Shown here in pieces: positions 7,979 to 64,000 of a stretch of DNA of 64,000 nt. Source of the stretch: Pempheris klunzingeri (Eukaryota > Chordata > Actinopteri > Acropomatiformes > Pempheridae); assembly GCF_042242105.1 (NCBI RefSeq), contig NC_092019.1, positions 16,661,328 through 16,725,327 of the forward strand, written 5' to 3'. The notes under the pieces were generated by a model, which worked only from the letters and a program-made list of their open reading frames with translations, had not been told where the DNA came from and did not search any database. Both the position numbers and the translations under genes were made by a program. The first letter of the stretch is position 1, and every line of letters starts with the position of its first letter.

Positions 7979-10476
7979 GCGTGTGTTCAGTGGACACTGT
8001 TCATGTACATGTGTTTGTGTGTGACTTTGTGCATACACGTGTGTTGATGTGGCTTTTTGTGAATGTGTGCATTTATACATGTGAGGGTGACCCTCTGATG
8101 ATGTCATGGATGAGCAATGACCACACTTCACTGGAGTTCATCCTCTGGTCACTGCTACTGTATGTGACCACTGTGGGTCCCCAAAGTCTCTAATTATTAC
8201 CTGATGAAATGATGACACATTTATGTGTTTTATTGTTTCTGAATTGTCTTGAATAGCATATGTAGCATATCGTGCTCTGGTGCCTCTGAGCGGAAAACAG
8301 AGAAATACCATCAAGTTTAGGTGCGTCCAGTCATTTCTTCGTGATCCTATGACTTTGCCAGTGGCATATTAGAAAATGAAAGGATACAAAATAATCAGAA
8401 AGCTGAACTATACATTACAACAGAATCACGAGGCAGGAACCTGCAGAGAGGAGGAAAAAATGTAAAGTGATCCACCATGGCAGAATGGAAAGTTGTGGAA
8501 GTTTGACAAGATCAGGACTGCATTTCTTTCCAAAGGTGTCATCTGCAATCTGCAACTGCCTGTGATCCTGCAGCAAAAATGAGAATTTGTTGGTGGCTTT
8601 GGATACTAAAGTGCCATCTCTTATCTACTTCTTAGCTTTTACAAAAGTTTTGATTCAGTGATCACAATGTACGAAAATCAGCTTTGGAAGGGAGGCAGGT
8701 CGAGTGCCTAAGAAAAAGCACTTTCAGAAAGCGGGTGGTCAGCAAATATCCTGATACTCTGTAGGAAAGTGTTCAACAATAACCATACCACAGTAACACA
8801 ATGTACAAAACACCAAGAAGTCGTTGGACAGATGTACAGGTCTCTTCAAAGATCAGGTTGCTCAGGCGTCACTCTGGTCCGAGGACTCCTGCGGTGAGAA
8901 ATAAGTAGCTCTTCTGCCATCTGGTGGTGGAAAACAGGTGTGTCGGCTCAGACCTGGAACTCTTTGGCGCTGATGTTTGGGAGGTGTCTGGGCTTGTGCA
9001 GCCACGGTGACCTACTGAAACTAATCAAACTATTGTTGTTGTAGTTTATTTCTGTTTGGAGCACACAGCTTTGCATGACTGCACGCAGAGACCCACACAA
9101 ATCCCTGCAGGGACAGGTGCGGTCTGAAGACACTCAAGAAAACTCTGTGTATGTGTATATTTGTGTGTTTATGTCTCCATGAGAACCAGGTTTACTGTGA
9201 GACCAGCGGAGTTTTCAGAGTGCAGGCCTCCGGTTGTTTTCAGGTTTTTTTTTTTTTAGGAATTTAGGACTTGGTTTTAGAAATAAGGTAAGGTCAGGGT
9301 TTTTGTAACATTTAGATATTGAGAATGTTGAGAGGCCAAGGCTGAGATAACAGCCAGGCAAAGCAGGTGACTGCCCTGGTGGGCCCAGATCATCAGGGGG
9401 GCTTCAGGCTTCAGGCTCATAGTATGAAAAAGTAACATTTAAACTGTAATGACCTGTCTGAACATTGACAGCCTGTAAGTGTAACTGGTGGTGTCTAGCG
9501 TTGTGACCACTGTGTTTTGAACTGACTGTCAGAAGTAGTTTGCCTTGTGGTCCAGCAGAAGGAGCTCCTTAAATTCACTTCTACTGACTTATCCGTAAAC
9601 GAAACTGATAAAAAAAAAAAAAGAAAATGGAGGGAGACTCCTGTGAGCAATTCCTAAACTGAACTGATAAAGGCCTTAAGGCAAGATCTGTAGTATTACA
9701 TAATCTTGAGGCCACATCTTGTAAAGGAGCTCTGAATTTATATTTAGTTTTAAAGCCTTCACTACTCCACTACATACATCTCTGCTTAAGCGCCGTTTTG
9801 TTGGACTTTTCTGAGTTTGTATTTGAAAAACGTTTTGACGTGAGCTGTGAGTTTCAGTTCAAACATTTATGATAAAGAAATCATACAATTTCATAGAAGC
9901 CCACAAATTAAGTCACTTTAGCCTTAGAGTTTTCTCTTGATATCTTGCTTTATGATCAGGGTTAAGTCGTTACAATAATCATTTTCAGATTTGATGCACT
10001 GGAAATTAGCGTAGATAAATTCCAAACCTTAGTATCAATATGTCTGTTTGCTTAATAAATCATATCATCAAGTAAAAAAATCAATTAAATCCCTTAAGTA
10101 TGGCAATGTTATTTAATCCCTTTTAATGTAAAATACATAGAGCAAAGTAAATTACTTGAAATCAGCATCACATCTGTGCTTTCCATGGCCAAGCAGTAAC
10201 GTGAAATGAAATCATTAGAGCACCAACCCACTCATCGTCGAGACACATGCACAACTATAAGCAAATTCACAGGCAAACTGGCACAAGCTTATAATTTGTA
10301 TGGACTTTTGGTAGAAATATACATTTTCCAGAAATTTTAATTCTTTAGAAGTATGCTTAATATGTTGGTGATTTTAAGATTTAAGATTTAATACTTAAAA
10401 ATGTGTCAAATGAAATGTCAAGTTTTAAATCTGTTCAGGAGAACTAAAGACCTAAATGTCTATCTTGCCTCCCAAA

Positions 10477-11061
10477 TTAAAAAAAGTTAACCGCCATAAA
10501 TAAGAAGAAGGAGAACAACCAGAGCCACGACATTTTAAAGCTGGGTGCATGGCTGTTAGTTTGTCCGCCCTGGCAGCCCCTGGCATTGTTATTTGGTATT
10601 AGATTATCAGGGTTTCCCTCGAAATGGACTGGAAGGCACTGATTGCTCAGCGTCTCACAAGCCAGGATCAGATGTTTGGTTTCCTCTCGGACGCTCCTGA
10701 TGCCACACGTCCCCTGCTCGCTCCTCACAGTGACGAACGTGAAAACCTGATCGCTGATGCACAGGTTCTCCTTGTAGACCTTCCCCCCATTGTTGGTGCA
10801 CACATCCTTCACCCTGTCCAGGTCTTTGGGATGGAGGAAGGACTGCGTGGGTCTGCTACAGCCCCCGTGGTTCTTGATGTACGTCTCCCATTCATTCTGG
10901 TTGGTAGACGTAGGAGTGTCTTGGCGAATGTGGCGTTTGACGAAGGTGCTGTAGCCGTTATTCCATTTGGAGAGCTGGCAGGGAGCATCGCTTCTGGCAA
11001 ACGTTTGGTGCTCGAGCAGGAGACAGACAACTAGTTTGAGAAAAGTCCTGAGAGCAGCCAT
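10477..11061 (-). CDS. RNase A-superfamily protein with C-terminal hydrophobic tail
   Basis: A 194-residue protein from one coding exon, as is usual for RNase A genes. A signal peptide covers about residues 1-23. Family marks are FVKRHI (His44, matching RNase A His12), LACETL and CLPVHFEG (His146, matching His119). The usual CKxxNTF motif is replaced by CSRPTQSF (68-75), so the catalytic lysine (Lys41) appears lost. Mature cysteines are at 28, 68, 88, 101, 119, 135, 142 and 163; the positions matching Cys26 and Cys84 lack cysteine. Residues 178-194 are strongly hydrophobic and end at the stop with no cytoplasmic tail, preceded by a small polar stretch (QTNSHAPS) that could hold an omega site, which suggests a GPI anchor. 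Ordinary secreted RNases end shortly after the PVHF motif. RNA cleavage is uncertain; a binding or non-catalytic role is possible. Confidence 0.85.
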   Translation of the reverse strand: MAALRTFLKLVVCLLLEHQTFARSDAPCQLSKWNNGYSTFVKRHIRQDTPTSTNQNEWETYIKNHGGCSRPTQSFLHPKDLDRVKDVCTNNGGKVYKENLCISDQVFTFVTVRSEQGTCGIRSVREETKHLILACETLSNQCLPVHFEGNPDNLIPNNNARGCQGGQTNSHAPSFKMSWLWLFSFFLFMAVNFF

Positions 11062-11073
11062 TACCCAGCAGTC
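11062..11073 (-). other. Splice acceptor and 5' UTR before the RNase start codon
   Basis: On the minus strand 'cacgctag|gactgctgggta' gives an acceptor ending at 11074. A matching donor 'aatcaag|gtaggg' ends an upstream exon at 11294, giving a 220-base intron (11293-11074). A 5' UTR intron directly before a one-exon coding region is the usual RNase A gene plan. Confidence 0.6.
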
Positions 11074-11389
11074 CTAGCGTGAAACAGAGAATATAAAGTC
11101 ATAACAGTATGAACAAATGCTACACTTTACATCCTTTTACCGCAGCCTTGCTTTTACATGACACGTTATAGCAAACTGTGTGAGTGAGTTTGACAAAGCT
11201 GCAGCTGTCTGTCTGTCTGTCTTTGTAGTTTTCTTAAACATGAAACAAGGAGAGGAAGTTGAAAACAGCTGCTTGATAAGGGAACTTCCCTACCTTGATT
11301 TGGCAGCAGTAGAGGCTTCTGTGAGCTACAAGTGATCTAAAAGCTCCAGATGCGAGATTTTTCTTCTGTCCTTCAGTAGCAGTTCTACA

Positions 11390-11399
11390 TTTCACTTCC
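11390..11399 (-). promoter_or_regulatory. ETS-IRF composite element (EICE-like)
   Basis: The minus strand reads GGAAGTGAAA, an exact match to the GGAANNGAAA composite bound by PU.1 with IRF4/IRF8 in myeloid and lymphoid cells. It lies about 95 bases upstream of the inferred 5' UTR donor of the RNase gene. Expression in immune cells is inferred only. Confidence 0.4.
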
Positions 11400-11571
11400 C
11401 GTGAGTGGGAGTGGGAGTGGCCTGAGGTGTGCCTGTGGGCACGTCAACAGCGTATGTATTACTTAAATCTGTCCACATGGCTGTGCTTTAGAGCAGCAGC
11501 CATGGTGAGATGTCATCCGGTTACAGCTATAAATACCTGCTAAAGGTCCAGTGAGCTATTTTGGATGCGTC

Positions 11572-11606
<35 letters not shown>

Positions 11607-12989
11607 CCTTCATCCCTGCTTTTTCAAATGGTATCTTTTACGTGTTTAATATAACTTTATTAATAAAATGGCAACGGGATATTTCCTCACTATAACACCC
11701 ACATGTAAGATGGGATCCTAAGATGGGATCCTAAATAGAGAGATCAAAGTCATTGTAATTTCCAGCAAGATCTACAGACATGTTCTTATACCACTTCTGT
11801 TTTTATGTTCTCGAATGTTAGAGTTAGATTGAACTAAAAAGACCAAAATATAAAGTGGTTTGACAGTCTGTTTAGATACTTATGGTAGAACATACTGTTC
11901 TTATGGTTACTTTGTTCAGTTTAATCTGAATAAATACAGAAAAATCTTAGTACTAAATCTATTAGGCAAACATCATTCAATTCAAAAATCATTTAACTGT
12001 CATCTCTTAAAACAGACAAATGTAGCGCACTAGGCTTTTGTGTTAAAAAGTGCTTTTATAAGTGGAATACTCCAGTTCCTCATTATTTGTTTCTGGTTTC
12101 TCTGACTGTCCAACTCTGTGTCTCTCTTACACTTGTTCATTCTGTGCAGCAGGTGATGTGAACCAACTATCATTTATTACATCTTTTACTGCCTCTTCGT
12201 ACTTCTGCCCTGATTTTTCTTTCAATATTCAATTAGTGGCATGCCCTAATTTAGTAATTCTCGCACCCTTTAATGAAAGATTTCCCCAATTTATTTTAAT
12301 TTTGAGAAGACAATCACGATTCTGGGACACATTAAAGGCTTCGTTTAATGTCCCCACAGCCTACGTAGTTAAATTAATTGGGTTGTGCCATGAGTTGCAT
12401 ATTGAAGGTTAAAATACATCATTGAGAAAACCCTTCTTCTATGTGCTCCTCTATGTTTTCTCTCTCATGTTATTTCATTTAGTCATTTCATAATAGGAAG
12501 GTAAATTTGTACTTAAAGACTGAACTGCTCTGTGCCCTGTTGTGGTTTTAGTTTCTGTATCAGTTCAGGGCATCACAAACATATTCTGGTTGCAGAGAGG
12601 TGCCTAGGACTGCAGCACAGAGGAGACCATGAAATTACATAGCTAGACACAGATATCTATTTATTTATTAGAGTCTAACCAATGTATACGGTATTTACCA
12701 GCTGATAGGTAACCTGAAAATTGCAGTGCAGTAAAGCAAAAACATATGTTGAAGGTCATTTAAAATAGTTTTGAAATAGTCTTCCTTACAGAATTGGTAC
12801 CAGAGGGCACGCAAAAACTATAAAATGCCCCAATTACCAGTTTAATAGTAGTGTCTAATAACCAAACTTAGAGGACTTCATAAAAAAAGTTTTGTTTCAC
12901 AAACCGTCTGCCTGCCTGTCTGTCTGTCTGTACTCATGTCATTTCAATCAAGTGTCCTGTACAAAACATAATCTATAGTGTTCTATGCA
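11400..12989. other. Spacer upstream of the RNase gene
   Basis: AT-rich sequence with a short (GT)n tract near 11575-11602 and tandem 'agatgggatccta' copies near 11708-11733. No gene, RNA or element recognised. The 116-codon open frame at 12062-12412 has no family features. Confidence 0.5.
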
Positions 12990-13231: not shown

Positions 13232-14573
13232 CAGTGGCTTGCAAAAGTATTCAGCCCCCTTGAACTTTTCCACATCTTGTCATGTTACGACCACAAACAT
13301 AAATATATTTTATTGGAATTTTATGTGAAAGACCAACACAAAGTGGCACACAATTGTGAAGTAGAAAGAAAATTATACATGATTAAAAATTTTTTTTACA
13401 AATAAAAAACTGAAAAGTGCGGTGTGCAAAAGTATTCAGCCCCCTTTTCTCTGAGTGCAACCAATTGCCTTCAGAAGTTGCCTGATGATTGCTGAATGAT
13501 CGAATGTTGACCTAATGACTAAATAGAGTCCACCTGTGTGTAATCTAATCTCAGTACAAACACAGCTGTTCTGTGACGTTCTCAGAGGTTTGTTAAGAGA
13601 ATATTGGGGAGCAAACAGCATCATGATGTCCAAGGAACACACCAGACCGGTCAGGGATAAAGTTGTGGAGAAGTTTAAAGCAGGGTTAGGTGACTCTGGA
13701 CGAACTGCAGAGATCCACAGCTCAGGTGGGGGAATCTGTCCACAGGACAACTATTAGTTGTGCACTGCACAAATCTGGCCTTTATGGAAGAATGGCAAGA
13801 AGAAAGCCATTGTTAAAAGAAAACCATAAGAAGTCCAGTTTGCCAGAAGCCATGTGGGAGACACAGCAAACGTGTGAAAGAAGGTGCTCTGGTCAGATGA
13901 GACCAAAATTTAACTTTTTGGCCTAAATGCAAAACGCTATGTGTGGTGGAAAACTAACACTGCAAATCACTCTGAACACACCATCCCCACTGTCAAACAT
14001 GGTGGTGGCAGCATCATGCTCTGGGGGTGCTTCTCTTCAGCAGGGACAGGGAAGATGGTCAGAGTTGATGGGAAGATGGATGGAGCCAAATACAGGGCAA
14101 TCTTGGAAGAAAACCTGTTGGAGTCTGCAAAAGACTTGAGACTGGGGCGGAGGTTCACCTTCCAGCAGGACAACGACCCTAAACATAAAGCCAGGGCTAC
14201 AATGGAATGGTTTAAAAGAAAACATATTCATGTGTTAGAATGGCCCAGTCAAAGTCCAGACCTAAATCCAATCGAGAATCTGAAAGATCTGAAAACTGCT
14301 GTTCACAAATGCTCTCCATCTAATCTGACTGAGCTTGAGCTCAAAAGGCAGTTCCACAAAGTATTGACTCAGGGGGGCTGAATACTTTTGCACACCGTAC
14401 TTTTCAGTTTTTTTATTTTAAATCATGTATAATTTTCTTTCTACTTCACAATTGTGTGCCACTTTGTGTTGGTCTTTCACATAAAATTCCTATAAAATAT
14501 ATTTATGTTTGTGGTCGTAACAGGACAAAATGTGGAAACGTTCAAGGGGGCTGAATACTTTTGCAAGCCACTG
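13232..14573 (+). mobile_element. Tc1/mariner-like transposon, decayed
   Basis: A 1342-bp element flanked by TA (13230-13231 and 14574-14575). It has roughly 200-bp inverted repeats of IR/DR type: 'gcaaaagtattcagccccct' occurs at the outer end and again near 13427 on the left, with reverse complements near 14371 and 14546 on the right. It belongs to the widespread fish Tc1 group. Insertion into an AT-rich LINE tail shows it is younger than the LINE copy. Confidence 0.93.
13620..14381 (+). pseudogene. Tc1-like transposase remnant
   Basis: Pieces of a Tc1 transposase are spread over different frames. The N-terminal part (HTRPVRDKVVEKFKAG) lies in a frame open from 13536 to 13757; the C-terminal catalytic part is open from 13941 to 14381 and holds FQQDNDPKH (an Asp) and [10 protein letters not shown] (the Glu of the DDE triad). 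Frame changes, and a missing segment near 13860-13880, mean no full protein can be made. Full-length relatives have about 340 residues. Confidence 0.85.
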
Positions 14574-18700: not shown

Positions 18701-21700
18701 TGTCTTTGTCTACCACTCTGTCTCCCTCTTTCACCTCTCTGTCTCTTTTTCGTCTCCCTTTTTCTCAGTTAGACTCGCGTGATAACAATGGAGTCACTGT
18801 TCAGTTTTTGCAAATCCTTTTCACTAATCAGCTCGCAAACAAACACCGCTCCCCCGTGCTTTTCCACCACTTCCCCTTTATCTCTATCTCTATTCCTGCC
18901 TGCCAAAGGCTCTTTCCCCCAGAGAGAGTCACCGGTAATCCTTAATATTCCCGCATTTCTGTCTACATTCCACTTTTCACTCTCTGCATGGAGTGTGCTA
19001 ATTGTTAGCTTTGGTCTACATGGCCACCCACTGGCTTGTTATTGTGGTTTGCATTATGAGCAGCATGCCTGCATTACAATCCGACAATATGGAAGTGCTG
19101 TTGGGGAGTTGACAGCAGTTTGTCTGTGACCTTTTGCAGCTTCATATTTGTGCATGTCTTTTTATATCATGCTAATCAGCTAATGTATTCTTAATTCTCT
19201 ATAATTAAGTCATTTATAGGCCTATGCAAATGTCTGGTGCCTAACACAGTATGTGCTTATCTGATCAGTCAACATGGGAGAGTGGGTGTGATTTTTTATT
19301 TATTTATTTTTTATAATGATGATGATGATTCCCTGTCTGTCTAACCTGCAGAGAAGGAGGCGAAGATGACCCTGTGGTTGAGCTGCTGTGTTGCACGATA
19401 GTTGTCCTGCAGCAGCATCCTGACTGGATCTTCAGCTTTAGTGGAGTAAAGTATCGTTTCCAACTTCCGCAGCTACAGTGGAGAGGTGAGGGGGAGAGGG
19501 TTACAGTCCTGAGGCAGGGAAAACTCAAGTCAAAATGTATTGGTGGCTCAAATATGTCACCAGGAATTCATTTATACTTGTTTGTAAGCTGAAATCTACC
19601 ACTAAATATAAAAAATTGAAAACCCATCAATGCTAGCAGTGCAAAGGTAATATCTCACTTTCCATAACCATATGGCATTATCCAATTCAGAAACTGCTAT
19701 TGGTATTTAGTGATGTGATAACAAAATGCAGGAACTCAAGAACATAATTTGTGAGACCAATCGTTTGCATTCGCAGGTCTTAATGAACAAATACTTTGAT
19801 GATTGTATTACATTTCTGTTGAAGCATCATTATTTTGGGTTGCATATATTTGCTGTGTAGAGAGTGGAAACACATCACCAGTCTGTGCAAGGCCAATACA
19901 AAGTGTATCTAGGCTGTTTATCAGTCTTTTATTTAGGCATTAAACAACATTTTAACGCATGCTAGATCAGTTCATCTTTAGAAGATTCACCTTGGTCAAA
20001 ATATAATCAGTGTCTGATTAAGATGAGTCTGCTGTTTACCTGTGCCTTAGAGATTTGAACCCTCTCATTGTACACTGTCCAGATCACACTCTGGTAGCAG
20101 GGCGGCGTCGTCAGGGAGCCGTTGTAGCGATAGTAGCGTGTCAGATCTTTAGGGAGCAGGGTCTGTATGTCAAAGGCTGGGATAGACACCTTCTGATCTG
20201 CCAGTGGGAGTGAGGGTGAGAAAAAGAGTAAAAGTATGTGAGGTCCTCTAGATAAAGCGAAATGTCTTCTTTTTTGTTGTGGCCGCACAAGAAGAATTTA
20301 TAACTGTTTTCATCTCTCCATCATTGTCCCATCAGCATCTTTAAAGCTCTAATGCTCAAAGCACTGAGTTTCTTTTTATGTTTTTCTTTAGGATACAATA
20401 TTTTTATGGTCACATGGCTCGGTCGTCATTACATCTATTCAATGAGCTGTGACTGGGGAGCATGGAAACAACCATTTACATTTAACTCAATCGAGCCAAA
20501 AAATGGAAGCTGCAGATTACGTAATAGTGAGAGAAAAAGATCTGAGGCATTTAAAACATTGTTTAAACATTGAAAAATAAACCAAACTCTCAAAAATGGA
20601 AACAGAAATGTGTTTAAGTATATTTCAAGTAGACTTACAAGCAAATCTGACTCGGCTCAGGTAGTTGAGGATGTTGTTAAATGCGGCGTTGGTCTCCTCA
20701 CCTGTCTGGGAAACCAAAATGTTTAAATTTTTACTTGATCTATTTATTATTTAGATTATTTATTATATTTAACCATGTGATTACTCTTCTTATTCTTTCA
20801 AATGTCATGTATTGCTCCTGTTTATTAGTACTGTTTCATTACCACAATGAGAATTCCTAAAACAGCCAGGCCGTCCCTCTGTGTCATTGCTGTGGACATG
20901 TTGGGGTACAGCTCAGAGTTGTAGTGCACCACATGTAGCTGGAAAGGGGAAGGACATTGTTAGTTTGTCCATCCACGCTAATGTGAAAGAGAAAGAGCAA
21001 GAAAGAGGTCCGGGTTTCTCCCTGTGACAGTCGAGGGTTAAAAGAAGAGACTGAGAGAGGAGAAAACTGCCTGCAAACTCAGATTTCCTTACTTCAGCCA
21101 GACTGAAGAAAAATGAACATCGACGAGGAGACTGATGTAAAGAGAAAGTGCTTAATTTTCTCATTATGTAATAAGACCGCTCACGCTTGACATATTCCAT
21201 TTTTCTCATAATATTTATCCTGTCTTTCATTTTGTTTCTGTATTTTCTCATCATTTCATCAACTCTGCATGACTTTTATCTTCTTAATCTGCTTATAAAT
21301 CCCTCACGCCTCTTTCCTCTCCAACTGCTCACCTCTGAAGAAAAGGTGCACTGGCATACCTGGACTGTGACAGATGGACAGGAACTGAGGTGCTGAGATG
21401 GCTTACCTTCCACTCTTTTTCCATCTCTTTCTCCATGTTTTTCCTTCCCTCTAAAGGTTATTCAGTCACTCACAAGTTTTATGTCTCCCTCTCCTCTGGC
21501 TTTGTGATTTTATCAGTAGCAACCCATCCCAGCACTTCTCTTCACAACCTGTCTGTGTCTCTTCTGTCTGTGCACCCCTCTCTCAGCAACATGAGTTCGG
21601 TGCGCTGTTTCTATCCCCATCGCACACTAAACCTGAACGAGGATCCAAGCTCGCTCAGCTATGAAAGATTTTGTGTGTTAGAGACAGAGAAGCGAGAGAA

Positions 21701-24625
21701 GGAAAGTATGAGGTAAATAGATGAATATAGTACCAGAAGTATAGCAAGCAAGGAAGGAAAGGTATTCAAACTTTTGTAAGTCCCACCATTGCCCCAGGGT
21801 ATGAAGAGATTACACAACAATGTGTTAGTTCAGGGGCCATGGTAATGTATTCAGTTTGCCTTATTTCAAGATATTTAATTTACTGTCATTTATGGCCAAG
21901 GATAGCTACAAATCATCTCAACTGAGAAGCTAGAAACTTCATGCTAGAAAAATGTATGAAACAATCTATTATCGAAATATATATAGATTATTTTCTGTTG
22001 ATAGACTAACTGATTAATCAATCAACTAAGTATCGCAGCTCTTGGTGTCACAAATACTTAGTTTAATTTCTTCAAAAGTTAAACAGCTGGGTACTGCAGC
22101 TTTTAGCGGATTTTACTGAAAGAGGAAGAAATACAGTGCATTTGTTGGGGACTATGTTCATTTGAGGATTATTACTCATTTGGTGCGCTCGTGAGTTTGG
22201 ATTTATCCAATCAGGTGTTGTGGTCACAGCAATACGCAGATAAAGTAAGAAGTTTCACAGACTTTTACACAATTTTCTTTGCTGGCCGGTTTGTTTGCGT
22301 GTGTGTAAAATTTCATGTCAATACAATGGAAAAGAAGACACGTGTCGGTGTGTGTGACCAGTAGACATGTATTCAAAATCTGCAGCATGATCCACTTTGC
22401 ATTAGTATGAAGGCTCAATTAAATGTCTTTTCTCCAAAAGTTAGAAGGGTAATTGTGTAAACACATATTGTAACAGATTACACTCCTTAGTCTCACTGTA
22501 CTTCAGTGATCTGTATGTGTCAATTGAAATGTAGTCTGTATTCTGTGTTTCATGCTGTCATCACCTTGTATTGTATTCTTAAGTTATATATCATTATATG
22601 ATAACTTTACATGATCAAATGTCGCCTTATTAACTTGCTACTATGTTCACTTTTTAATTCTCTTCCCCACAACACTGAACAGAAAGTAGATTTCTGTAAG
22701 TAGCTCTTGGGATTCTTGACACTGTAAATCCTGATTCAGAGTTAAAGCTTTATTTTTCCTTGGACATTGTGGTGAATTAAAATTTTTGTTCTGTTTAAAT
22801 AATCTCAGAATTGTCCCTAATCACAAGATTTATGCTCCTAGTTCATCCTTTAATATAAAAAAATCTCGACCCTCTTAAAAAACTACTGATATCACACTAC
22901 TAGACCTTGACCGCCCTTTACTTACAACTTAGCTCGGCTGTGATTTGTCTCGCTGTGGATTTTACTGTTCACAGTGAGCGGTGTTAAACATACCTCTGCA
23001 TCCGCACTCAGTCCACTGATGGTGTGTTCGCTGCCCCCGTGACTCGGGCCACCGCTGCCCCAGTGGAGGTGCATTTGCACAGCTGTAAAGAGCCAGGGCA
23101 GCCCTCCAAGCCCCATCCAGTCTGGCAGGTTGATCACAGCTGATGGACAGAGGAGCAAAACAAAAGCTGACTCCCTGAAGTCAACAGACAGGATAAAGAT
23201 AACTGAACAATTCAAATAAAAAAATTTAAAATTTTAGCTAATCCGCTGAATTTATTAATGGGGAGCAAAATGTTTGCTGCCAGGTTACAACTGAGAATGG
23301 CACAGTATAAGCAGATCAACCGTAAGGCTGAGGAGTCATAATAGGAGCTGGAAATGAGCTGGCTGCCATAGTTACCTGTGTGTCCGTTATTGTACAGAGT
23401 GAAGGGGTTGTTGCCGTGCTGACTGTAGCCCAGTGGGGTCAAAGGGATCAGATTGGGGTCATATTTGGTCTGTGTGGTTACCACATCCACGGGGGACTGA
23501 GAAGTACCACCGCAATCAGGGAAATACTCTGACCACTCAGACTGACCCACCAAGCCTTTGACAAGAGAAAAGACAAAAACAATGTCGTCACCAAATCACA
23601 CAGCCCACTGGCTCGAAGTTATCCACTGAAAAGCCTCCATTGATCAGTCTCGAATTATACAAGACAAATATTCTTCAATGTTTTCCTCTTACTGAATGTA
23701 TGTTTATGGTATAAAGTTTGAGGGTTTCACAGTGGTCCCAATTTTTATGCATATGGCATATTTGTAACTACACAAGGCATTTTTAATGTTTGAGCCATTA
23801 GACTCCTAAAGGATGAACAATGCCCTCTTTGCTATTGATGGAACAGGACAAATTTAATAAATGAAGACACATTTTTTCTTACTAAGATTTAACCACATTT
23901 TTCTTACTAAGATTTAGCCACATTTCTTTCTTCGGTAATACAGAAGGTGAGATCTTTCCAACATGACTCACAGCATTTTGTCAGTCAGCTGGTCCATAGG
24001 AGAAGACATGTTTTATCAACAACCACAGACAACGTCGTCTCCATAAGTTTTAACCACAGCTGAAATCATTTGTTGCACTAAATGAACGTTGCTGTGGATC
24101 AGCTCTAATAAAAATGCAGGTGACATGCACGTCCCATGAAACTCAAACTAAAATGCTGCTCAGCCATATGAAAATCTCCAAAATTTGGTCACAATTACTG
24201 CCAAATTAGCCACAAAATAAGTAATTTTTTTAAAAATAGACAATATATTTGATCTTATTTAGTATCAAACATTTTTTAACATTGCTAACAGGTGGAATTG
24301 TTGTATTGTAGTATTGTGTATTGTGATAGTAAATGGAAATAGTTGCATTTAGAAATCTTTTGTGGCTATAACACAGAGGATTAGCCCCCACTGGAATTTT
24401 ATATGGTCCTCAAATATATTAACAATCTGCTGAAAATCACAGGTAGAAAAATTTAAATGGCAGCTTTTATTCCCGAATGACAAATTCACTATTTGAACAT
24501 AATTAAAACCTGATAACTGATCAAATGATGATATGAATTGTTTAGAAGAATTGTACTTTTAGATAAAAGACATTGCACAACATAGGATTTTATAGGACAA
24601 CTTTTGCCTTTACATTTATGTTCAC

Positions 24626-36324: not shown

Positions 36325-36851
36325 CCGGGGGAAGGGGGGGTGGTGGAGAGCAAGCCCGAGATGGGGAGGAGGGGCTAGAGAGAGCACTGGAGGCAGTGGG
36401 AGAGCGAGAGAGAGAGACTGCCTATTCTGATTTCACTACTCTACAAGCTCCCATCCCCCTCACATTTTACTCTCCTCTACAGTCTCCAATCTCCTCAATG
36501 GGAGCCAGACATGCACCACCATTGTGTGCCTACTGCCTACCCCCGGTCCCACTCTGCACCATGTTAAACTAGGGCACTGGTATACCCACCATTTTGAGTA
36601 ATTGGGCTTATTATTTTTGGGACAGAAATGGGAACAAATGGAGTTTTGCCAAATGAAAAGCAGTTCTTTGCAATGATTTCGTCCTCACGCCTTTAATTTC
36701 TACACTGTCTACATTTGTCCTGGCTCTCACTGTTGTAACAACTTAAAACATGCTGGTTTTGAGTGTCCAGCCAAGACTCTTTTTTTTCTTTCTCTATAAG
36801 CTGTATTGAATGTCATAATAACCCTAACCCTCTGCTGCCGCCCCAACAGAA

Positions 36852-39136
36852 ATGCAGTCCCAGGGCAGCACTTCCTCTCAGCCCTCCTTCGATTCCCTGA
36901 GCTCCAGCGACAGCCTCTTGTTCAGCGACTCTGAGCAGGCGGAGGACGACACAGATGTCTTCCTGACAGACAGCTCTTCCTCTGTCGTCATCAGTGGCGT
37001 GGGCGGGGCGGCGGCCAATGGGAGAGAGGGAGGATCGGAGAGCCCCGGGTCCCAGTGGACATGCGATGGCTTCACCGATAAAGAAGAAGAGGAGGAGTCA
37101 TACAGGTCGGAAAGTGGCGGCAAGGCAGCTCACATCAGCTTGGACGAGAGGGATCCTACGAGCCAGATCCCCAAATCACAGGGAGACCTGCTGTTTGCTC
37201 AGAAGGTAAGGGGACTGGGTGAAGGGCCCTGGGTTGTTGAGAAAAGAGGTGACAGAGCAATGTGAGTGCAGAGGAAGGCCCGGCAGACTGATTCAGACAG
37301 CAGGGCCTAACCCAAACTCAGTAGTAATCTATCTTCCCTCCCTCTTCCTCTGTCAGTGTGCTGAGCTACAGGGTTTTGTCAGGCCTCTGCTGGAGCTGCT
37401 GAATGGACTGAAGAGGGGCCGATTCGACCGCGGTAAGCATCCTTACATCACTGCTTCTGCTCAAGCGTGTGTGCAGACTGGCAACTAAAGTTGTGGATGC
37501 TGAACACAGGTTTATATGATTGGAGGGGCCTCAGTCGATTAGAGTGTGTACCTTTGTGCGGCAGCCTGTATCGACGCAGCCTATTGATGTAGTCCAGAGT
37601 GCAGCGTGTGAAGCGACAGTCTTGTGGCTGACTCGTCAGCACACGAGAGTTTACAAGTTAAAGTGTATGTGTGTGTCAAACAGAGCGTGAGAGACAGTGC
37701 ATGTCTGCCCATGCATACATTCTCTGTGACTATGAGAGTGCAAATGCTGACTGAGGGATTATATTTTTGATTGACAGGTTTGAGTAGTTTCCAGCAGAGC
37801 GTTGCCATGGATCGAATCCAGAGGATCGTGGGGGTTTTACAGAGACCCAACAGCGGGTAAGATGTCATTTACATTGTTCCACTATCCACCTGAAGTGTTT
37901 CTAACTATGTGTTACTCATTCTCGTACGCTGTACGCTACATCGTAGTTGAATTTTAGCATGCAGATGATTATTAAATTGGAGTAAGATCCACAAGAAGGG
38001 AGCAGGGAGGTCGTGCTCCATTTCAAGCCTCATCTCCTGTTCCATGTTTTATTGACTAGTCCTTGGGCAGGTAGAGTTACAGCATTCACAGACGTTTAGA
38101 GAAGCACCAACCCTCAGAAGAACATTTTTCTAGACTTGTATGCAGGACCATAAATGTCCAGTCAAACACAAATGTATTGCCATCTGTTCCTCACTTTTCA
38201 TTTTTATTGTCTCATTTATTTTTTGTAGGGAGAAGTACCTGAACACTCTGCTCCAGGTGGAGATGATGCTGAAGGTTTGGTTCCCTCAGATCCACACTCA
38301 GCCGGTCTCTGCAGCCTCCAGCGTCGCCACATCCCCCACCCACTCCCTCCAAGACTCTTCCAGCTCCACCCCGCCACACAAGCACAGGGATCAGTTACAT
38401 ATTCCCGTCAAGGTGAGAGCAGAAGTATTCCTGTGTGTGCAGGAGCCCTCGCTTCCCACCAACACCGCCACACATTGAACTCTGTATTCACTTGCAAAAT
38501 TCTTTCCTGCTCATTTTCCAGAAGCGCAGACTCAGCTGGACAGGTACGGACTCCCCTACGCCTTCCCCTGTGCTTCTAAAGTGCCCTCGAATCAGTGCAG
38601 AGGAGAAGAGGGTGAAGCAAGATCGTGATGAAAGGGAAGGCCCTCCTCCTCCATCATTGTCATCTGATGCAAACCAAAACTCACCAGATGTGGCCGATAA
38701 CAGCCAGCTGAATGAGGACACAAAGGGAAAGGACAATGACAGCGAGGAGCCAAGCAAGCTATCAAAATACAAAGCAGGTCAAAGTTCTGAGCCGAGCCTG
38801 ACGTGGGTCCACGTAGCCCCCATCCTGTCCCCACGAAAGGCCTGCCTCTCACATGAGGGCACAACAATGGCAGGTAGCACTGAAAACCAGCGTGTCGCTG
38901 CCATCCTCCCACCCAGGAGCAGGGGCAGTCCAGCTACGCAAGACAGCTCCATCTCTTCTACCACACCCTACAAGCACTCCAAAAATCTGAAGAAGCCAAT
39001 CCGGTGCCAAAGCCAGCCTGTTGTTGGACAACAGAGTGAGAGTGAGACCATCGAGACCTGTGAGGGTCAAAGTCCATCTCCTCAAGTCACACTTAAGCCT
39101 TTGCCCAGGCTGTGCCCCACCCCCTTAGAGACCTGA
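36852..39136 (+). CDS. ciart: Circadian-associated repressor of transcription (CIART/CHRONO), 5 coding exons
   Basis: A nuclear repressor that in mammals binds the BMAL1 C-terminus and CRY proteins and damps CLOCK:BMAL1 activity. Coding exons are 36852-37205, 37357-37432, 37778-37856, 38229-38412 and 38522-39136 (1308 nt, 435 residues, phase kept). The N-terminus is Ser-rich (SFDSLSSSDSLLFSDSEQAE). A conserved helical core runs from about residue 116 to 185: FAQKCAELQGFVRPLLELLN, then DRIQRIVGVLQRPNSGEKYL, then LLQVEMMLKVWFPQI. KRRLSWTGTDSP follows, and a long disordered Pro/Ser tail ends LCPTPLET. A non-coding first exon ends at the donor 'actgaag|gtgagc' (35027) and joins an acceptor at 36849. 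Human CIART is somewhat shorter (385 residues); the extra length is in the tail. Confidence 0.92.
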
Positions 39137-49157: not shown

Positions 49158-54645
<5,488 letters not shown>

Positions 54646-63283: not shown

Positions 63284-64000
63284 CACTCCCCTCCAAAAGT
63301 ATTGGAACAGTGAGGCCAATTCCTTTATTTTTGCTGTAGACTGAAAACATTTGGGTTTGACATCAAAAGATGAATATGATCAACATTTCATATTTTATTT
63401 CCAGGTATTTACATCTGGATCTGATACACAACTTAGAAGATAGCACCTTTTGTTTGAACCCACCCATTTTTCATGTGAGCAAAAGTATTGAAGCATGTGA
63501 CTGACAGGTGTGTTTTGTTGCCCTGGTGTGTCCTGTTACATTGATTATTCAAACAATAAATAGCGCTGAATGTCTACGTTCAGTTTCAGATTTGGGTTTT
63601 GCCTGTGCAGACTGCATTTATAGTTAGAGGCGTAACCAATAAGAAAACCAGAGAGCTGTCCATGAGTGAAAAACAAGCAATTGTGAAGCTGAGAGAAGAT
63701 GGAAAATCAATCAGTCATTCCACAAACATTGGCCATAGAAGAAAGAAACCACTGGTGTACTAAGTAACAGACGTCGAACGGGTAGACCAAGGAAAACAGC
63801 AGCAGTTGATGACAGAAACATTGTGAGAGCTGTAAAGAAAGACCCTAAAACAACTGTTGGTGACATCAGCATCAACCTCCAGAGAGCAGGAGTGAAGGTG
63901 TCACTGTCTACTGTTCGCAGAAGACTTCATGAACAAAAGTACAGAGGCCACACCAGAAGATGCAAACCACTCATTAGCAAGAAGAATAGGAAGGCCAGGC
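63284..64000 (+). mobile_element. Tc1/mariner-like transposon, 5' part, cut by the window edge
   Basis: Starts CACTCCCCTCCAAAAGTATT after TA (63282-63283), a Tc1-type terminal repeat. From 63663 it encodes MSEKQAIVKLREDGKSISHS, the helix-turn-helix start of a Tc1 transposase. The frame is then broken: later pieces (about 63774 on) fall in other frames, with stops between. The copy is dead in this part. It lies in an rprd2 intron, in the same orientation as the gene. Confidence 0.85.

Follow-up and report, generated by a model that had tools for sequence, protein, structure and literature searches.

We have identified, in a 64,000-nucleotide stretch of the Pempheris klunzingeri genome (the window; coordinates below are positions within it), a gene of the RNase A superfamily that differs markedly from the genome's own soluble RNases and that, judging from its sequence, probably carries a C-terminal GPI-attachment signal. 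Its product is most likely a GPI-anchored RNase A relative that is weakly active or inactive, with both the anchoring and the level of activity being predictions.

An intact frame with an N-terminal signal peptide

The whole coding sequence comprises 194 codons and a stop on the minus strand (10477..11061). It is read in one frame, presumably from one exon, and the open reading frame is intact and contains no internal stop. In the translation, a PVHF motif occupies residues 144–147 (with the histidine at 146), and the frame continues for 48 residues past that histidine, confirming what the first-pass annotation had reported. That annotation had also raised the possibility of a frameshift; the tail proved readable in the window sequence without one.

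Residues 1–24 (10990..11061, minus strand) form a probable secretory signal peptide, with cleavage after Ala22 or Ser24 according to hydropathy and our own reading of the −3/−1 rule. The N-terminal hydrophobic segment spans residues 1–17, with a mean Kyte-Doolittle value of 1.73, and the ER signal expected of GPI-anchored proteins is seen here on hydropathy only. An antisense open reading frame of 136 codons (10624-11034, plus strand) overlaps the RNase coding exon and probably exists only as a consequence of the codons on the sense strand.

A divergent member of the RNase A family

An RNase A-like domain (residues 37–148; 10618..10953, minus strand) is recognized by the Pfam family PF00074 (RnaseA) at 24.3 bits (E 4.5e-05), which narrowly exceeds the curated cut-off of 23.1 bits, by a margin of 1.2 bits. 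A phmmer search of PDB sequences returned 20 relatives of the 194-residue protein at E 0.001; angiogenins matched best, the top match (E 9.9e-05, 25.4 bits) covering residues 26–148. The earlier assignment to the RNase A family, made from the sequence without database searches, is borne out by these two matches, if narrowly. AlphaFold models made without an alignment were poor (mean pLDDT 46.2 and 48.6), and a Foldseek search with the domain model from that prediction gave no matches at E 0.001 or better; because the alignment-free structure prediction was poor, fold matches are left out of the argument. Pattern matches in viral and prokaryote collections (7 and 38, respectively) included none that encoded a relative.

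Both catalytic histidines are kept in the alignments (RNase A numbering is used for His12, Lys41, His119 and the cysteine counterparts). His44 (10930..10932, minus strand), the counterpart of His12, is invariant in an alignment with two RNases from the same genome and is also aligned by phmmer and BLASTP, while His146 in the PVHF motif (10624..10626, minus strand) corresponds to His119 in phmmer, MAFFT and BLASTP alignments. The CKxxNTF signature of the family is absent, its place being taken by CSRPTQSF, a change that the first-pass annotation had not remarked on. At the lysine position within it, phmmer and BLASTP place Arg70 (10852..10854, minus strand) and MAFFT places Ser69; we regard Arg70 as the probable counterpart of Lys41, such that the catalytic lysine has probably been replaced by arginine. 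Because the catalytic lysine of CKxxNTF is missing, the 194-residue protein is, by its sequence, a divergent RNase A relative rather than a canonical RNase. RNase A retains little activity when Lys41 is replaced by arginine, and on that basis we would expect either a weakly active enzyme or a pseudoenzyme that binds RNA.

The three disulfide pairs that are conserved in fish members of the family are not all present. The pair C88–C135 retains C58–C110, and C68–C119 retains C40–C95 in the MAFFT alignment, with phmmer and BLASTP not lining C68 up with its counterpart. The counterpart of C84 is V112 (phmmer and MAFFT) and that of C26 is either N56 (MAFFT) or W58 (phmmer), and therefore the C26–C84 pair is gone. 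There are extra cysteines at positions 28, 101, 142 and 163; the last of these, which MAFFT sets against the final cysteine of the two same-genome RNases, may be shared with them. The mature protein has a predicted pI of 7.73, versus 9.91 and 10.53 for those two paralogues (their mature start being assumed, with a cut after residue 21).

Distant paralogues in the same genome

A search of the 646-Mb genome with PF00074 returned two matches (72.6 and 71.6 bits), both on contig C9, which correspond to neighboring canonical RNase A genes encoding proteins of 147 residues (L001, positions 1423-1866) and 145 residues (L002, positions 1426-1863). Since the search missed the window gene itself, its list is incomplete and further divergent members of the family may exist in the genome. 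The best match to L001 among PDB sequences is zebrafish RNase5. In the MAFFT alignment the 194-residue protein is 29 and 31% identical to L001 and L002, and BLASTP against L001 reports 24% identity at E 0.055; on these alignments, L001 and L002 are distant paralogues of the window gene and not its orthologues. Each of them has nine residues after the catalytic histidine and no tail, and both failed the GPI rule test described below. Each also has an odd seventh mature cysteine near its C-terminus (GHCD/GRCD), which could allow dimers to form.

With the 194-residue protein as query, tblastn against the window recovered the gene and no other hit with an E value below 2.3. The same query against 60 kb of sequence from the same genome (30 kb to the left of the window on contig C8 and 30 kb surrounding the canonical pair on C9) returned nothing at E 0.1, the canonical genes included, so that only close copies are within reach of such a search; when the L001 protein was searched against the same 60 kb, L001 and L002 were the sole hits.

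The hydrophobic tail and its fit to a GPI signal

The RNase A-like domain is followed by a polar linker that includes Cys163 (residues 149–170 by sequence reading; 10552..10617, minus strand) and then by a proposed GPI attachment signal (residues 171–194; 10480..10551, minus strand), which is assigned by its fit to the GPI pattern and would be lost on anchoring. The protein ends with an uncharged hydrophobic run, WLWLFSFFLFMAVNFF (residues 179–194), that lies directly at the stop codon. A hydrophobic end of 17 residues had been described previously; the run and its position at the stop hold, and its length is corrected to 16 residues, 17 being reached only if Ser178 is counted. For the last 17 residues, Ser178 included, the Wimley-White octanol sum is −17.05 kcal/mol and the mean Kyte-Doolittle value 1.72.

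The open length of the tail is unremarkable, because 2,020 of 18,244 sampled positions in the window (11%) are open for 46 codons. Its hydrophobicity, by contrast, is remarkable. Among the window's remaining stops with at least 17 open codons upstream (2,532), none is preceded by 17 residues as hydrophobic (the lowest sum is −15.65, and two are at or below −15), nor is any of 251,571 stops simulated from an order-3 Markov model of the window, nine of which reach −15 or below. These counts weigh against the possibility that the ancestral stop was lost in a gene that is decaying or evolving fast, leaving a tail that is neutral read-through of 3′ sequence and has no membrane role. Such an origin would agree with the frequency of open stretches just given, with the divergence of the domain and loss of its lysine motif, and with the T-rich composition of the last 54 bases (28 of 54). 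Against it stand the end of the protein, so hydrophobic that neither set of stops contains its like, and the frame, the pair of histidines and the predicted splice sites, which are all intact; we consider neutral read-through quite improbable.

According to PMC9098846, a GPI signal combines a small omega residue with an 8–12-residue hydrophilic spacer, a small residue at omega+2 and a hydrophobic C-terminus of 15–20 residues. The tail fits this pattern with Ser170 as the omega residue, Ala172 at omega+2, the eight-residue spacer HAPSFKMS and a hydrophobic end of 16 residues. Gly166 is an alternative omega residue, with a spacer of 12, and fits if threonine is allowed at omega+2. We converted the pattern into a rule test, which is our own construction upon that published description and not a trained predictor. 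With the cut on mean octanol energy set at −0.3, −0.5 and −0.8, the rule is passed by 8, 2 and 1 of 551 control frames from the window and by 283, 103 and 5 of 40,382 simulated frames, respectively; the 194-residue protein has a mean octanol energy of −1.09 per tail residue. The GPI-anchor layout that the first-pass annotation proposed is thus backed by the test, within the terms of the pattern on which it was built.

The main rival to a GPI signal is an uncleaved C-terminal transmembrane anchor, which would make the product a type I protein with almost no cytosolic part. The run is very hydrophobic, as its octanol sum indicates, and rich in tryptophan and phenylalanine, as such an anchor might be. 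At 16 residues it is nevertheless short, it extends right up to the stop codon and no basic stop-transfer residues come after it, and suitable omega and omega+2 residues are found at the expected distance. We judge a transmembrane anchor unlikely, and a GPI signal suits the tail better because the run is only 16 residues long and no basic residue follows it.

Gene structure and splicing

Splice sites were scored across positions 9500-11800 by a simple scheme with approximate weights. From these scores we infer a non-coding first exon (approximately 11294..11400, minus strand, with its 5′ end being approximate), a 220-nt intron in the 5′ UTR (11074..11293, minus strand) and a single coding exon that includes the tail. 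The donor of this intron, AAG/GTAGGG at 11293 (9.0 bits), is the best scored in that stretch. The acceptor, TTCTCTGTTTCACGCTAG/G at 11073 (9.5 bits), lies 12 nt before the ATG and ranks third; the two higher-scoring acceptors, at 9604 (16.0 bits, after a T run) and at 11730 (10.2 bits), are both located outside the interval between the 11293 donor and the ATG. In the canonical genes L001 and L002, an acceptor-like sequence ending in CATCAG likewise stands just before the ATG. The reading frame, splice scoring and hydropathy agree on a single exon that encodes the whole protein, its probable signal peptide included, as is characteristic of the family.

Removal or replacement of the tail by splicing would yield a soluble product, and acceptor-like sites are present downstream at 10468 and 10430 (6.3 and 7.8 bits). 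Splicing away the tail alone appears unlikely, because the sequence from the domain end to the stop contains no GT donor above 0.3 bits, and splicing from 10658 or 10728 (donors of 5.1 and 5.3 bits) would delete the catalytic histidine as well. The blunt snout bream and zebrafish members aligned in PMC5852591 also have single coding exons. A soluble product made in this way is, in our estimation, very improbable.

The sequence GGAAGTGAAA, at 11390-11399, resembles an ETS-IRF element; its location in a promoter is presumed and amounts to a guess. It hints at leukocyte expression, and carries little weight because its two-base-gap form occurs seven times in the window.

Comparison with known RNases and a proposed role

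The protein shares with fish RNase A enzymes (those of zebrafish, Rnase1-3 of blunt snout bream, and L001 and L002) a signal peptide, a coding sequence in one frame, the counterparts of His12 and His119 and, by MAFFT, two of three disulfide pairs (C68–C119 and C88–C135). The fish members that are aligned in PMC5852591 have a signal peptide, a single coding exon, the CKXXNTF motif, the His-His-Lys set and six cysteines within 133–150 residues. In comparison with those aligned members, the window protein is longer (194 residues), has an altered motif, lacks the C26–C84 pair, and has a hydrophobic tail and extra cysteines. Its best PDB sequence match, over residues 26–148, is angiogenin (RNase 5); unlike the window protein, the aligned angiogenins retain the signature's lysine and NTF and terminate shortly after the PVH motif, with no tail. 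With the GPI-anchored ectoproteins described in PMC9098846 the window protein shares the omega residue, spacer and hydrophobic C-terminus.

The first reading had held that the family otherwise consists of secreted proteins. This agrees with passages of PMC5000675 and PMC5852591, the former of which describes the final form of human RNase A members as secretory. Among the matches listed from the open-licence literature, as judged by titles and the starts of abstracts, none names a natural membrane- or GPI-anchored member of the superfamily; some of them concern angiogenin uptake, immunotoxins or bacteria. In the same open-licence literature we found no report of a C-terminal extension in teleost RNase A members. 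A GPI-type tail on an RNase A relative would be a new layout for the superfamily, and the gene itself may already be present in databases under a plain name.

If the GPI signal operates as predicted, the signal peptide would direct the protein into the ER, where GPI transamidase would cut after Ser170 (or Gly166) and join the new end to GPI, removing the last 24 residues in the case of Ser170. A mature domain of about 146 residues would then be displayed on the outer leaflet of the cell surface. There it might cleave extracellular RNA slowly or bind it, or its role might be that of a surface binding protein. We put forward tentatively, from one gene in one genome, that a fish RNase A lineage has turned into a GPI-anchored surface protein that either serves as a receptor for extracellular RNA or slowly degrades it, with rebuilt disulfides and arginine for lysine, and that it may be the first naturally membrane-tethered member of its superfamily. 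A cell-surface form, if true, would mean that the family's action can be local, in the manner of a receptor or on extracellular RNA, for instance, and would offer a simple genetic and biochemical system for studying the function of surface RNA handling.

Other features of the window

Exons of a carbonic anhydrase are found on the minus strand at 20010-20297, 22925-23233 and 23215-23595, the last of these being closest to CA14 among PDB sequences, and an exon matching the U4/U6 snRNP protein Prp3 (PRPF3) is located at 50910-51191 on the plus strand. Human CA14 and PRPF3 are neighbors on 1q21. Conserved synteny with that human region is not claimed, as human APH1A and MRPS21, searched against the window, yielded nothing at E 0.01. 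Scans of the window for tRNAs and Rfam families gave no matches. Two long open frames without a Pfam match (36828-37262 and 38417-39133, plus strand) perhaps belong, by eye, to the circadian repressor CIART, which is an assumption on our part. Pieces of Tc1/mariner-type transposases (DDE_3; HTH_Tnp_Tc3_2) are present on the plus strand at 13914-14378 and 63739-63999.
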